Assembly (NCBI GenBank): GCA_026693065.1
Contig: JAPLNA010000159.1
Location: forward strand, 1-33,245
DNA length: 33,245 nucleotides
Reading direction: 5' to 3'
Origin: Planctomycetota bacterium
GTDB taxonomy: Bacteria > Planctomycetota > Phycisphaerae > SM23-33
A program made the translations under genes and the position numbers. The notes below the pieces were generated by a model, which saw nothing but the letters and a program-made list of their open reading frames with translations, was not told where the DNA came from and searched no databases. Positions 5,017 to 31,899 of this stretch are shown here, piece after piece. Numbering within the stretch: the first letter of the stretch is position 1; each line of letters opens with the position of its first letter.

Positions 5017-6123
5017 TCAGGACGAAGCTCGCTTGAATGTGTCCTTGAGCTTGTCCATGAACGTTTTTCGCTGCGGGGAGATCTCGACGTTGTCCGTCTC
5101 GGCCAGGGCCGAAAGAATCTCCCGCTGCTTCTTGGTGATCTTGCGGGGCACTTCGATGAAGACCTGCACGAGCTGGTCGCCCTTGCGGGCACTTCGCAGG
5201 TTGGGCAGTCCGCGCCCGCGAAGGGCCACGACCTCGCCGTTCTGGATGCCGGCGGGGACCTCGATCTCCTCGGGCCCGGCGAGAGTGGGAACCTCCAGCT
5301 TGCCCCCCAGGGCCGCCAGCGAAAACGGCACCGGGGCCTGGCAGATCAGGTCGTCGCCCCGGCGCGCCAGCAGAGGATGGGCGGCCACGCGGACGTAGCA
5401 GTGCAGGTCGCCCCGGGTATCGTTGTTCGGGCCCGGCTCGCCCTCGCCACTGACGCGGACGACCTGGCCTTCCTGCACGCCGGCGGGAATGCGGACCTTG
5501 ACGACGCGATGCTTCCTCGCCCGCCCCACCCCCCGGCAGTGCGGACAGGGGTCTTTCACCGTCGAGCCCCGCCCCTTGCACGCCGGGCAGGCCGTGATCC
5601 GAACGCTCACCCCGAAAAACCCCGCCACCTGCTGCTGCACCTGCCCGTACCCGCCCGGCTTGGCGCCGCTGCCCGAGCAGGTCTCGCACAGGTCCATCCG
5701 CTCGAACTCCAGCGTCCGCTCCACCCCGGCGGCCACCTCTTCCAGCGTCAGTTCGACCTCGGTCTCCAGGTCGTAGCCGCGCTGGCCGGCGGACTCCCCC
5801 CGGCCGGAAAAACCCATGCCCGAGAAGATGTCGTTGAACATCGAGAAGATGTCGCCGAAGCCCATGCTCGAGAAGTCGTGCACGCCCGCCCCGCGAAGCC
5901 CCGCGTGCCCGTAACGGTCGTAGCGTTGGCGTTTGTCGGGGTCGTGGAGGACTTCGTAGGCCTCGGCGAGTTCCTTGAACTTGGTTTCGGCCTGGGCCTT
6001 GTCGCCCTGGGCGTTGTCGGGGTGGTGCTTGAGGGCCCCCTTGCGGTAGGCGCGCTTGATGTCCTCGTCAGTGGCGTTCCGCTCGACGCCCAGGACCTCG
6101 TAGTAGTCGCGCTTCTCGGGCAT
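5017..6123 (-). CDS. dnaJ: Chaperone protein DnaJ, lacking one zinc motif
   Basis: This Hsp40 co-chaperone (368 residues) delivers substrates to DnaK and stimulates its ATPase. The J domain covers residues 5-70 with HPD at 34-36. A G/F-rich linker follows to about 118, then the cysteine region and the two C-terminal substrate-binding beta domains with KIPAG-like VRIPAGVQEGQ. Type I DnaJ has four CxxCxGxG motifs, but only three are here: C146-G153, C179-G186 and C193-G200. Where the second should be, the chain reads AKPGGYGQVQQQ, as if about ten residues holding its cysteines were lost in frame. Zinc site I (motifs 1 and 4) can form; site II has only motif 3. grpE follows by 16 bp; groEL lies 95 bp upstream. 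Confidence 0.95.
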   Translation of the reverse strand: MPEKRDYYEVLGVERNATDEDIKRAYRKGALKHHPDNAQGDKAQAETKFKELAEAYEVLHDPDKRQRYDRYGHAGLRGAGVHDFSSMGFGDIFSMFNDIFSGMGFSGRGESAGQRGYDLETEVELTLEEVAAGVERTLEFERMDLCETCSGSGAKPGGYGQVQQQVAGFFGVSVRITACPACKGRGSTVKDPCPHCRGVGRARKHRVVKVRIPAGVQEGQVVRVSGEGEPGPNNDTRGDLHCYVRVAAHPLLARRGDDLICQAPVPFSLAALGGKLEVPTLAGPEEIEVPAGIQNGEVVALRGRGLPNLRSARKGDQLVQVFIEVPRKITKKQREILSALAETDNVEISPQRKTFMDKLKDTFKRASS

Positions 6124-17752: not shown

Positions 17753-17836
17753 TCCCATTTTGCACATTGACTCGTACCCCCCGCACCCTCTGGGGTGGCC
17801 ACAAATCGTCCCCGGTCAGCAGACAGCGGGGCCGAT

Positions 17837-18076
17837 TGTGGTGCGGGCATCTTGCCTGCATCCCAAGTCTGGCGGCGGGAGCAGAGAGACGACCACGCCA
17901 GAACCCGGGAGACGGGGAGAACCGGCGGCGGTTCCCCCCGAACCCCCCATCCCCGGCCCACACACGCCAGACAACGGTGCGCCCGATCTGCCCATGACTT
18001 CCCCTTCCGGTTCTGTTGGGGGGCGCGTGGGCCGGGCAGAGGGGTTCGGGGAGAGCGACCGCACGCTCTCCCCGGG
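17837..18076. repeat. Hairpin-bounded inverted element, copy A
   Basis: The core 17914-18073 has two inverted half-sites. The left one is a stem-loop (17914-17924/17929-17939, one A·C mismatch) followed by AACCCCCCATCCCCGGCCCA. The right one is the reverse: a core with CGTGGGCCGGGCAGAGGGG, then a perfect 10-bp hairpin (18048-18057/18064-18073). The shared flank from 17837 (TGTGGTGCGGGCAT) also occurs in copy B. Related copies are at 20108-20349 and, inverted, at 31501-31656. Confidence 0.8.
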
Positions 18077-18094: not shown

Positions 18095-18210
18095 AATTCG
18101 GGGGACGGCGGGCCAAGGGCCAAGTTTCGTGCGGGAGGGCGCGGGGGTAGGAGCACGAGGGGAAAGAGTCCCCCCGCGGTGCGGGGGGCTTGTCGATCGC
18201 GGTCGGGGTT
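18095..18210 (+). repeat. CTTGTCG hairpin module, copy A
   Basis: The module starts AATTCGGGGGACG and contains a hairpin CCCCCCGC/GCGGGGGG (18170-18177/18181-18188, loop GGT) followed by CTTGTCGATCGCGG. Copy B at 19995-20101 matches it along its length with a few gaps. The hairpin and CTTGTCG also form both arms of the inverted pair at 4012-4111. Confidence 0.8.
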
Positions 18211-19994: not shown

Positions 19995-20101
19995 AATTCG
20001 GGGGACGCCATACCGCTTTTTGTGCGGGACGGCGCGGAGGTACGAGCAGGGGAAAAACGTCCCCCCGCCGTGCGGGGGGCTTGTCGATCGCGGCCGGGGT
20101 T
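19995..20101 (+). repeat. CTTGTCG hairpin module, copy B
   Basis: It starts AATTCGGGGGACG and carries the hairpin CCCCCCGC/GCGGGGGG (20061-20068/20072-20079, loop CGT), then CTTGTCGATCGCGG. The stem is conserved relative to copy A while the loop differs. It begins four bases after the stop of the preceding gene. Confidence 0.8.
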
Positions 20102-20107
20102 TCTTGT

Positions 20108-20349
20108 TGTGGTGCGGGCATCCTCCCTGCATCCTGAGTCTGGGGGCGTGAGCAGAGAGACCCCCGTCGCCACCCCCGGGAGACGGGGAGAACCGGCGGC
20201 GGTTCCCCCCGGACCCCCCATCCCCGGCCCACACACAGGCCAGAACAACGGCATGGCCGATCTGCCCACGACGTCCCCTTCCGGTTCCGTTGGGGGGGTG
20301 TGGGCCGGGCAGAGGGGTGCGGGGAGAGCGACCGCACGCTCTCCCCGGG
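20108..20349. repeat. Hairpin-bounded inverted element, copy B
   Basis: The core 20185-20346 repeats copy A with the same left stem-loop, the CCCCGGCCCACACA core, the inverse core and the same 10-bp right hairpin (20321-20330/20337-20346). Differences cluster in the middle between half-sites. The flank from 20108 is also shared. Confidence 0.8.
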
Positions 20350-24555: not shown

Positions 24556-25731
24556 CTATCGGACTCGGGCCTTGGGCCTTCGTTTCAGCCCCACTAGCAT
24601 CGGGCCGCCGAAGAGGGCCAAAAGGGTGGCTGGCTCGGGGACGCTCGAAAGGGAAACCGTGCCGGTGCCCCCCCCGGCCATGCCGAAGTCATCCTTCAGC
24701 AGCCCGAAGTCTTCCGGGCCGATCTCGCCGTCGTCGTTGGCGTCGCCCAGGGTCCAGCTCTCATGCTGGCCGTGCACCAGGCCGTCGAGACCGAAGCCGT
24801 CCTTCAGGATGCCGAAGTCTTCGGGCCCGACCTCGCCGTCCATGTTGAAGTCCCCGTACAGGATGCCGTCGGGGGGCGGGGGCGGAGGTTCCCAAGGAGG
24901 CGGGTCGACGGGGGGCTCCGGGTCATACCATTGGGAGGCCGGGGTCTGAAAGAACGTGATCTCCTGGGTCATCGCATACTGAGCCCCCGCTACGACCGGC
25001 CCGCCCAGGCCATAGAGGGTCACGTAGAGTTTGTTGTCGGTCCCCCTGTCCTGGATCGACTGTTTGGCGCCGTATCCCAGCCCCTCGGAGAGGGTCGAGA
25101 GGATTCCCTCGCCGGCGACGGGGTCGTACTGGGCCACAGACGCCGCGTCAAACCTGAATTCGGTGAAATTGTCGAGTCGTGTCGAGAACACCGAAAGCAG
25201 GCCTCCGTTCTGATCGAAGGTCGCCACTTTGTTCAACCGGTTCTCGCGGCTGGCCAGGAAGCCGTAGCACTTGAAGACCGACAGGTTCGTGGCCAGGCCT
25301 GTCAGGACCACGCGTTCGGTGATCCCCGCCGAACTGATGGTCATCGTGGAGGTCAGGGCGAAGGCGTCAAGAATCACCGAGCTGCGAGACAACTGCACCA
25401 CGTCGCCGGAGTAGCTGGTGTCGTCCTGAATCGCACCGGAAACGCCGTCGACCGTGACCGTCGCGCCAACCAGAGTCTCCCCCCCGTGGTAGGACCCTGC
25501 CAAGAGACGATCCACCCCGTCTCCGAATTCAATCACCGTGCCCTGCGCACTGCCGATCGCCAGGCCGTCGCAGAACCGGTGCGATTTCCAGTCAATGCTC
25601 GATACGGTCCACGATCCGCCCCGGTCAAAGGAAACGGAGACGTCGCCGGCCTGGAGAGTCACCGTGGCGTTGACGGAAGCGGCGCACAACAGGAACAACG
25701 CTCCGACGCCGCCAAGGATTCCAGACCGCAT
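24556..25731 (-). CDS. Exported protein with dockerin-like loops and PEP-CTERM tail
   Basis: A signal peptide (about 1-22) is followed by a beta-rich body of about 260 residues without recognisable domain, then a Pro-rich linker. Two EF-hand-like loops come next (GDFNMDGEVGPED and GDANDDGEIGPED), each D-x-N-x-D-G-E-x-G-x-x-D, as in dockerin type I. The C-terminus is a PEP-CTERM signal: VPEPATLLALF, a hydrophobic stretch and KRRPKARVR. PEP-CTERM tails are recognised by exosortase-type systems and sort proteins to the surface. The loop-and-tail block is nearly the same as that of the next gene upstream. A TTGACG/TATACT promoter lies in the 136-bp gap. Confidence 0.88.
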   Translation of the reverse strand: MRSGILGGVGALFLLCAASVNATVTLQAGDVSVSFDRGGSWTVSSIDWKSHRFCDGLAIGSAQGTVIEFGDGVDRLLAGSYHGGETLVGATVTVDGVSGAIQDDTSYSGDVVQLSRSSVILDAFALTSTMTISSAGITERVVLTGLATNLSVFKCYGFLASRENRLNKVATFDQNGGLLSVFSTRLDNFTEFRFDAASVAQYDPVAGEGILSTLSEGLGYGAKQSIQDRGTDNKLYVTLYGLGGPVVAGAQYAMTQEITFFQTPASQWYDPEPPVDPPPWEPPPPPPDGILYGDFNMDGEVGPEDFGILKDGFGLDGLVHGQHESWTLGDANDDGEIGPEDFGLLKDDFGMAGGGTGTVSLSSVPEPATLLALFGGPMLVGLKRRPKARVR

Positions 25732-25867: not shown

Positions 25868-27616
25868 TCATCTTCGGGATACGCCCGTCATCGGCCGTCG
25901 TTTCAGCAACATAGGAAGGGCGGCGGCGAAGATGGCAAAGAGCGTGGCCGGCTCGGGAAGGCTCGCCAGGGGATACGTGCCGACAAGACCGCCGGATTCG
26001 CCGAAGTGGTCTTTCAGCAGGCCGAAATCCTCCGGGCCGATCTCGCCGTCGTCGTTGGCGTCGCCCAGCGTCCAGCTCTCCTGGTTGCCGTGGGCCAGGC
26101 CCTCGAGGCCGAAGTGGTCCTTCAGGATGCCGAAGTCCTCCGGCCCGACCTCGCCGTCCCGGTTGAAGTCGCCGGGGATGGTGCTGGCGGTGACCAGGGC
26201 GATAATGTCCGCGGGCGCCCCGGCGTGCTGGAGGGCGGCGATGAAGCCCGGTGAATCCGCGGCGGTCACCGCGGCGTCGCCGTTGAAGTCGCCGGCGAGA
26301 TACCGGCCGCCGGGATAGGCCGCACCGAAGGCCGTGCTGGTGAGAGTCTCGGCCCGGCGGAAGAGGGTAACGTCGTCCTGGGTGAGCCACTGGTCGTTGC
26401 TCAGGTCGCCGGCGTAGCTCAGGGGCGCCGGCCAGGCCGTCAGGCCCCCGAGAATGCTCTGCAACGGGGAAATCAGCGAGTCGGTGTACACCGTGCCGTC
26501 GGTCGGGCGGCGGTCGAAGAGGACCGAATAGGTCCAGTTGCTCGCGCCGCTCTGGTACTGGAGCATCAGGGTGTCCGTGCCGTCGAGCGAGCCCTCGTGG
26601 GCCCACCAGTAGTTGGTGTAGGTGGTGTAGTCCGACCGCAGCTTGCCGATCTCCGGGCCGTACGCGATCCGACGCTGGGCCAGCGTGGCGATCGCCTTCG
26701 CCGAGCCGATCAGCCCGCCGTAGGCCATGGCCTTCTCGTGGTCCCACCCGCCGTAGGGGGAGGAAACGCTCGGCCCGGTCGGGTTGTAGACGTTCTGGGC
26801 GAGGTACGGGCTGGAGTAGACGGGCTCTCGCGGGTCCTGATTGGCCGCGAAGGTCCGCCCAGCGTTGATCTCCCACGCGGGGATGCCGGCCGGGGCCAGT
26901 ACCTTGCTGTCGACGTAGGACTCATACCCCTGGCCCGAGACGGCCTCGACGACCATGCCCAGGAACATGAAGCCGATGTTGGAATAGCTCGTCGCCGTGC
27001 CCGGGGTGAACTGGAGGGGCTGGCTGAGGATGTAGCGGGCGCTGGCGGCGATGCCAGGCGGGCTGGGCAGGCCCATCGCGTTGGCGATCGACACATCCCG
27101 GAACGCCAGGTCGCCCGCGACGTCGCGGTTCCACCCGCCCTGGTGGGCGAGCAGTTCGCCCACGGTGATATCCCGCAGCCGTGCGTCCCCCAGCGTTCCG
27201 TTGTACGGACTGACGTTCAAGACCCCGCCGTTGCCGCTCAGATTGAACACCTTGGCGTTCAGGCTGAGCTGCCCGTCCTTGATGAGTTGCTGGACCGCCG
27301 AGGCCGTCACGGGCTTGGACACGCTGGCCAGGCGCATGAGGGCGTTCTCCTGCATCGGCTTGCTTCCCCCGGCCGCGTCGGTGTAGCCGAAGCCCCGCTC
27401 GTAGACGACCTTGTTGTTGTGGGTAATCGCGATCGTGCCGCCGGGAATGGGCTTGCCGGCCATGAAATTCTGCATCAGCGTATCGACCGCCTGCAGTTGG
27501 GGCACATACGTCCCCGTCACGGGCAGGACGGCCCCCGCCGGCCTCGCGCCAGCCAGGCAAAACGCCACCCCCGCCACCAGGCCCACGAGGGCCGGCGTCA
27601 TCGTTCGGTTTGGCAT
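25868..27616 (-). CDS. Exported serine hydrolase (beta-lactamase/class C PBP type) with dockerin-like loops and PEP-CTERM
   Basis: This 582-residue protein has a signal peptide (about 1-29) and a class-C beta-lactamase-like domain to about residue 400. The catalytic motifs are S98-V-S-K101, Y211-S-N213 and H340-E-G342, matching SxxK, YxN and HxG. The third is often KTG in PBPs, so an esterase or D-Ala peptidase role is likelier than beta-lactam hydrolysis. A first dockerin-like stretch follows (GDLSNDQWLTQDD and GDFNGDAAVTAAD), then the shared block with GDFNRDGEVGPED and GDANDDGEIGPED, and the PEP-CTERM tail (LPEPATLFAIF, KRRP). The tail should place the enzyme on the cell surface. A Gfo/Idh/MocA gene ends 57 bp upstream. 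Confidence 0.9.
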   Translation of the reverse strand: MPNRTMTPALVGLVAGVAFCLAGARPAGAVLPVTGTYVPQLQAVDTLMQNFMAGKPIPGGTIAITHNNKVVYERGFGYTDAAGGSKPMQENALMRLASVSKPVTASAVQQLIKDGQLSLNAKVFNLSGNGGVLNVSPYNGTLGDARLRDITVGELLAHQGGWNRDVAGDLAFRDVSIANAMGLPSPPGIAASARYILSQPLQFTPGTATSYSNIGFMFLGMVVEAVSGQGYESYVDSKVLAPAGIPAWEINAGRTFAANQDPREPVYSSPYLAQNVYNPTGPSVSSPYGGWDHEKAMAYGGLIGSAKAIATLAQRRIAYGPEIGKLRSDYTTYTNYWWAHEGSLDGTDTLMLQYQSGASNWTYSVLFDRRPTDGTVYTDSLISPLQSILGGLTAWPAPLSYAGDLSNDQWLTQDDVTLFRRAETLTSTAFGAAYPGGRYLAGDFNGDAAVTAADSPGFIAALQHAGAPADIIALVTASTIPGDFNRDGEVGPEDFGILKDHFGLEGLAHGNQESWTLGDANDDGEIGPEDFGLLKDHFGESGGLVGTYPLASLPEPATLFAIFAAALPMLLKRRPMTGVSRR

Positions 27617-31431: not shown

Positions 31432-31500
31432 GGGTTTCCGCCGCTGAGCCTCCCCAGTTTGCCTTCGGAAACAATAGGCAATCCCAACAACCGGAAACAT

Positions 31501-31656
31501 GGGGAGAGCGTGCGGACGCTCTCCCCAAACCCCTCTGCCCGGCCCACACACCCCCCAACAGAACCGGAAGGGAAACTCGCGCGGCAATCGGGTGTGCCAT
31601 GGTTCTGGCGTGTGTGAGCCGGGGAAGGGGGTGCGGGGGAATCCGCCTTCGGCGGA
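31501..31656. repeat. Hairpin-bounded inverted element, copy C (opposite orientation)
   Basis: It starts with the perfect 10-bp hairpin GGGGAGAGCG/CGCTCTCCCC (31501-31510/31517-31526, loop TGCGGA), followed by AACCCCTCTGCCCGGCCCAC. The other half-site ends in a different hairpin, TCCGCC/GGCGGA (31642-31647/31651-31656). Compared with copies A and B that stem has a wholly different sequence, yet it pairs at the same place. It lacks the left flank found in A and B. Confidence 0.8.
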
Positions 31657-31723
31657 CCGGGTCCTCCGCCAACGGGGTCCTCTACATCGCACACCTCCTC
31701 ACCCAGGCTTTTCCTGGCGCACA

Positions 31724-31899
31724 GAGAAAGGGATTTCAGGATTATGGGATTGAAACGCGAAGACAGAACCCCCGGAAGCTGGAACGGTCGCATGCTTGTG
31801 GCCGGAGGTCACCGGACGACACAGGGCAGCCTCGTTCTTCTCCGAGGCATTCTGTTCAATCCCATAATCCCATAATCCTGAAATCCAATCCCTTTCTCT
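31724..31899. repeat. Imperfect inverted repeat with GGATTATGGGATT arms
   Basis: The left arm 31724-31754 and the inverse right arm 31855-31899 share GAGAAAGGG, ATTTCAGGATTATGGG and ATTGAA. The right arm carries two extra internal stretches, one being a second copy of ATTATGGG. The 100 bp between the arms hold no gene. Confidence 0.8.

Follow-up and report, generated by a model that had tools for sequence, protein, structure and literature searches.

What are the three related repeats that lie between genes on a 33,245-nucleotide contig of an uncultured planctomycete (this whole stretch is called the window below), and how did they come to be there? The original prediction had described each of them as two inverted, hairpin-capped half-sites around a variable centre, and had suggested either a non-autonomous mobile element or a structured RNA. 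On the sequence, the three copies (A, B and C) were found at the positions first given for them, and they do share one design, in which a left hairpin, an arm, a variable centre, an inverted arm and a right hairpin follow one another (Table 1). The core common to all three is about 160-180 bp long, the arm consensus is CCCCC(T/A)TCCCCGGCCCACACAC, and the right hairpin is GGGGAGAGCG..CGCTCTCCCC in each copy. The spans originally assigned to A and B contain this core but also take in about 70 bp of a second left module that these two copies share. Minimum free energy z-scores against dinucleotide shuffles were -4.7 for A, -4.1 for B and -4.6 for C.

Table 1. Features of repeat copies A, B and C, in positions of the window.
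Feature	Position	Strand	Remark
Copy A, extra left module (TTGTGGTGCGGGCATCTTGCCTGCATCCC...)	17836..17903	+	common to copy B; occupies the place of the TIR arm in full-length copies
Copy A, left hairpin GGGGAGAACCG-GCGG-CGGTTCCCC	17914..17937	+	short-tip allele
Copy A, left arm CCCCCATCCCCGGCCCACACAC	17944..17965	+	
Copy A, variable centre	17966..18023	+	
Copy A, right (inverted) arm GCGTGGGCCGGGCAGAGGGG	18025..18044	+	
Copy A, right hairpin GGGGAGAGCGACCGCACGCTCTCCCC	18048..18073	+	
Copy B, extra left module	20107..20174	+	common to copy A
Copy B, left hairpin	20185..20208	+	short-tip allele
Copy B, left arm CCCCCATCCCCGGCCCACACAC	20215..20236	+	
Copy B, right (inverted) arm	20298..20317	+	
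Copy B, right hairpin GGGGAGAGCGACCGCACGCTCTCCCC	20321..20346	+	
Copy C, conserved tail ATGTTTCCGGTTG (minus-strand reading)	31488..31500	-	begins the TIR-bearing right flank in full copies
Copy C, right hairpin	31501..31526	-	
Copy C, right arm	31530..31551	-	
Copy C, left arm (GTGTGTGAGCCGGGGAAGGGGG on the plus strand)	31610..31631	-	
Copy C, left hairpin	31635..31667	-	TCCGCC-GAA-GGCGGA tip within GGGGGA..TTCCCCC stem

The window holds other repeats as well. The repeat CCCCCCGCGGTGCGGGGGGCTTGTCGATCGCGG occurs at 18159-18210 and 20050-20101, where it adjoins copies A and B, and also near loci L031 and L013. A perfect 21-bp inverted repeat, GGATTTCAGGATTATGGGATT, lies near copy C at 31731-31751 and 31866-31886, with similar sequences in L016 and L108. 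Positions 24575-24874 and 25893-26192 form a 300-nt direct repeat with 79% identity in two adjoining genes, and the gene at 25868-27616 has beta-lactamase-type and dockerin domains.

The host genome is a Phycisphaerae draft of 5.68 Mb in 441 contigs, 93% complete, and a BLAST-type check for further copies in it, which the original prediction had proposed, returned at least 40 at 77-90% identity, far above chance. A covariance model with follow-up raised this to 61 dispersed copies or fragments, among which 42 have the full core; 61 is a lower bound, and several contigs end within copies. The family core was not found in 59 relatives (34 of the same family), and the exact 22-base core pattern had no match in other GTDB species genomes. 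A full core runs from the left hairpin GGGGGA..TTCCCCC through an arm, a centre of about 57 bp, an inverted arm and the right hairpin to the tail. Among the 42 full copies the left hairpin has the short GCGG tip in 17 and the TCCGCC-GAA-GGCGGA tip in 23, and both forms occur with differing flanking modules. The left hairpin of copy C, which had been taken for an unrelated stem, is the same stem carrying the latter tip. The alternative left hairpins are recurring alleles and not the product of point-by-point compensation. In one family copy (L103, G000:C103, about 5197-5520) the centre is interrupted by an unrelated MITE, GGTTCATCCGGGATTTCCGGGG..CCCCGGAAATACCGGATGAACC, which is about 150 bp long and has an apparent 8-bp duplication, TTCTTTCT.

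The expected intergenic location holds throughout the family: with gene calls seeded with Pfam-supported genes, none of the 61 copies lies in coding sequence and no overlap with it exceeds 40 bp. For the 45 copies with a neighbouring gene on each side, the setting is convergent in 18, tandem in 20 and divergent in 7, a bias compatible with promoter avoidance or with insertion aimed at 3' hairpins.

Alignment of the flanks placed the core within longer repeats, one form of which (T1) ends in a 28-bp terminal inverted repeat (TIR), CTTGTCATTACCCACATCTTTCACTCC. A pattern search of the host genome with this TIR found 12 sites and the reversed control pattern found none. The TIR stands at each end of the core in C302 (325 bp) and C372 (362 bp) and at each end of an internally deleted core in C226 (210 bp); an exact 9-bp target duplication, CCGGCCGCG, is present on both sides of C226, and the flanks of C302 and C372 agree at 7/9 positions. 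Profiles of the T1 arms matched the right flank of 27 copies and the left flank of 17, in several cases over a short part only, and gave no same-strand match on opposite-flank controls.

The family is of the non-autonomous TIR transposon (MITE) kind, a kind of mobile DNA already well known. It has no coding capacity and measures 325-362 bp when full, its TIRs are accompanied by target duplications on the three elements named above, and an autonomous partner with the same ends was found in other genomes, not in the assembled host genome. This partner, the copy number, the absence from coding sequence and the ends and duplications of the fullest copies support the earlier proposal that the element is mobile and non-autonomous. 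New to our searches are the inverted hairpin-capped interior, the sharing of ends across phyla and the targeting of palindrome loops. QMITE2 of Coxiella, Nezha of cyanobacteria and RUP (reviewed in PMC10969869; listed in PMC3733652) are likewise short, non-coding, intergenic and strongly folding, with TIRs and target duplications, and their truncated copies lose the TIRs and come to resemble REPs. The host family differs from them in its IS50/Tn5-type TIRs, in a GC-rich interior whose inverted core has a hairpin cap at each end, and in outer modules that vary between copies, a distinction that for Nezha and QMITE was drawn from their descriptions.

The ends are not confined to the host. Of 397 genomes in the class, 7 carry a 15-base end, and three of these have several copies of it: G005, from the same family, and the class-level relatives G253 and G271. 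The reversed control matched once in total. In G253, at least 7 of the 8 end matches (L176, L181, L185, L189) lie at most 25 bases from contig ends, as expected if longer insertion sequences with these ends had stayed unassembled. The first 19 bases of the T1 ends recur in other GTDB genomes, in at least 108 stretches from many phyla, among them Planctomycetota, Hydrogenedentota, Verrucomicrobiota, Cyanobacteriota, Acidobacteriota and Armatimonadota, and also on one viral contig (IMG/VR 3300014839_001402, L300). There these ends delimit MITEs whose duplications measure 9 or 10 bp, and insertion sequences of 1.45-1.52 kb with a Tn5-like transposase. Many exact duplications were observed at 47 TIR pairs, 9 of them at 9 bp and 6 at 10 bp, and the same pairs scored at 5-8, 11 and 12 bp gave none.

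In L262, a transposase of 466 aa takes up the 1455-bp interval between the ends; it has the Tn5-type Pfam domains PF14706, PF01609 and PF02281 and carries YSHRWLIEEYHKCLK, which fits the YREK motif. A tblastn search with this protein placed relatives inside the ends of L242 (1452 bp) and L214 (1522 bp), and the transposase lies beside a TIR in 11 further distinct loci, including one in the Phycisphaerae genome DeMMO2_9. L214 has an exact 10-bp duplication; L262 and L242 are without an intact one. Two plasmid IS4 transposases picked on protein similarity alone have the ends CTCATCGTTACCCACAA (Deinococcus) and CTATCCATTACCCACAT (Nostoc). The TIR pair of L291 holds no ORF of at least 300 aa. We rejected L218 (Armatimonadetes bin-9590) as an autonomous partner on finding by eye that its 1452-bp TIR pair holds an IS481/IS3-like transposase; because a 246-bp MITE is present in the same genome, L218 is probably a MITE of that type interrupted by another insertion sequence.

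The published IS50 subgroup has ends of the form CW------Y---CA-A--W-, a size of 1350-1550 bp, direct repeats of 8-9 bp and the YREK motif (PMC2266710, Table 1), and as of 2008 its members had been reported mostly from proteobacteria (PMC2266710). The end CTTGTCATTACCCACATCTT agrees with every conserved position of this consensus, and the size of the partner elements, 1452-1522 bp, falls inside the range. The autonomous partner therefore matches the IS50 subgroup of IS4 in its size and ends, in the length of its duplications, and in the Pfam domains and YREK motif of its transposase, with two differences: duplications here are also of 10 bp, slightly beyond the published 8-9, and the end around TTACCCACA is common to many phyla. 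The view that the repeat fits no named family stands as far as the literature searched is concerned, in which we found none and nothing relevant to the end sequence, but the ends themselves can be assigned to this subgroup.

Protein and family searches of the host assembly returned no Tn5-like transposase. The family search was positive in E. coli as a control, and three other genomes with these ends were also transposase-negative, so that for the host the loss of the transposase and an incomplete assembly are not separable.

The differing hairpins had first been read as structure-preserving change, which would point to selection on folded DNA or RNA. This reading did not survive the covariation check. 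In 33 stem pairs across 42 copies, 96.2% of 1379 cells pair, and there is one cell changed on both sides against about 50 broken ones; since 133 of 500 shuffles equal that single two-sided change, the stems are conserved and not covarying. A candidate compensatory change in the right hairpin, from GGGG/CCCC to GGCC/GGCC, was set aside, as it is complete only in fragment L105 and partial in L036; L081, L084 and L093 have one side of it only. Changes shared by several copies amount to 1.45 per column in the stems versus 5.77 in the centre (p=6e-43), about four times rarer in the stems, whereas private changes amount to 0.46 versus 0.68 (p=0.11), a comparison in which the saturated centre hides some private changes and the stem set takes in a few unpaired columns. 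The two ratios differ (p=0.0005, with gene conversion left out and with related copies that are not independent), and the pairwise stem distance stays at about 0.07 while the centre distance climbs from 0.09 to 0.33. It would seem that the lineages which multiplied retained their arms and that single copies mutate freely. Arms that hardly vary from one subfamily to the next, together with private mutations that strike arms and centre almost equally, suggest a constraint acting during multiplication of the element rather than through host use of each copy.

This bears on the possibility that the host keeps the repeats as a structured RNA or as an element of mRNA 3' ends, a bidirectional terminator or stabiliser. 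The strong folding, with z-scores of about -4 to -5, the excess of convergent over divergent gene pairs (18 vs 7) and the position of some copies directly between two stop codons are in line with such a role, but private mutations nearly as frequent in stems as in the centre are not, nor is covariation that does not rise above its control. No Rfam covariance model matched in the window at gathering thresholds, and the family is absent from the 59 related genomes searched; we consider a host-kept RNA very improbable. A REPIN or BIME moved by a RAYT (Y1 transposase) also consists of two inverted hairpin repeats flanking a variable centre, is intergenic and reaches high copy number, and the host genome does contain seven Y1-transposase matches. 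One of these (L057, G000:C365:422-766) is a RAYT-type gene that has inverted hairpin repeats of its own, CTACGGGTGGAGTCCGCCGAAGGCGGGCGCAACCCGTAG, on either side and forms a separate dispersed system. None of the seven loci, however, is flanked by the family core or its half-sites, only generic TCCGCCGAAGGCGG motif matches being found there, and we rejected mobilisation by these RAYTs. Neither a GTAG nor a CGTC tag stands beside the hairpins in the alignment of 42 copies. We know of no long TIRs or 9-bp duplications produced by Y1 transposases, and the presence of both on the fullest copies contradicts a REPIN for the full-length form, which makes this explanation scarcely credible.

A more serious alternative arises from the outer modules. 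At least three left modules (the T1 arm, T2 and the module of copies A and B) meet the core near the same hairpin boundary, about half of the 61 copies are without a recognised TIR arm, and some twenty have a quite different left module ending at that boundary. Since so many copies lack the arm and a different module ends at the same place, the core may spread by another route too. The hairpin-bounded core could even be the mobile unit itself, moved by an agent that is not Tn5-like, with the TIR, T2 and T3 forms as its carriers; the nearly constant left boundary, core-only copies adjoining unrelated DNA and a TIR element without a core (L031/L114) would agree with this. Several copies with the T2 left module nevertheless retain the T1 right arm, so that this arm is older than the T2 module and was carried by an ancestor of both forms. 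Where the core stands alone its right-hand limit is ragged, neither edge of a core showed a target duplication, and the core-less L031 is explicable as an internal deletion between GGG runs. On this balance an independently mobile core seems improbable. The modules may have been joined by nested insertion with deletion, by recombination between copies or by independent mobility of the core. The ends of the T2 form abut common CACAAAG-type repeats, and inverted repeats CACRAAGGACCCGGCGCGGCCTCGAACC occur without the core at L166 (G000:C299:13985-14351) and at C22:12749-12950, as if the T2 left module had a terminal inverted repeat of its own.

We therefore consider it likely that A, B and C are members of a MITE family whose mobile form was moved in trans by a Tn5-like transposase of the IS50 subgroup. 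This form would consist of the TIR, a left arm, the left hairpin, the inverted core, the right hairpin, a right arm and the inverted TIR, and its cut-and-paste transposition would have left the 9-bp target duplications (elsewhere also 10-bp). TIRs and target duplications were looked for at A, B and C and neither was found; from the core that they retain, we infer that they are eroded or rearranged relics of the mobile form, and it is on the same sequence grounds that they would themselves have been mobilised. The transposase would since have been lost from the host genome. Selection during multiplication, for example for cruciform folding or protein binding and not for a host role, may have kept the arms of the core.

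Folded interiors and palindromic targets recur in other lineages. MITEs with the same ends and unrelated interiors, from several phyla, have z-scores of -3.8 to -12.3 in 16 of 24 cases outside the host, and the interior of the Fischerella element L238 holds a pair of inverted TAATAGCC half-sites, each with a different hairpin cap. Short cyanobacterial forms (166-181 bp) with these ends do not fold strongly, and of the host's full-length elements C372 has a z-score of -3.7 and C302 of 0.0, so that not every element folds strongly over its whole interior. The flanks of insertions tend to be palindromic, with 4.4 of 8 flanking pairs complementary versus 2.9 when shuffled (P=0.00005; 12 genomes, one site each). 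Elements ending in CTTGTCATTACCCACAT lie in palindrome loops above chance (L183, L214, L252, L263, L270, L284 and others), and a clear example of a duplication in a hairpin loop is CTCGTTCCCA[AATGGAATT]TGGGAACGAG, within the Hydrogenedentota repeat CTCGTTCCCA..TGGGAACGAG. The host's own exact site, at C226, is not clearly palindromic (3/8 pairs). Nested hairpin modules might arise over time through insertion into palindromes. More generally, but with considerable doubt, we propose that this cross-phylum Tn5-like class inserts into palindrome loops and that an inverted hairpin-capped interior, which aids multiplication, has evolved again and again in its small derivatives. If this is true, folded DNA matters to a DDE transposase twice over, in the choice of its insertion sites and in the choice of the MITEs that it amplifies.

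The repeats are a real, lineage-restricted family of MITE-derived sequences whose mobile form belongs with the IS50/Tn5-like insertion sequences. An unexplained repeat of an uncultured planctomycete is now tied to a defined type of transposase through ends that are spread over many phyla. The comparison of private with shared changes is a simple way of separating selection for mobility from selection for host function, and can be applied to any repeat family. The preference for palindromic targets, together with many small derivatives that have folded interiors, offers a testable account of why palindrome-rich repeats build up in genomes of this kind.
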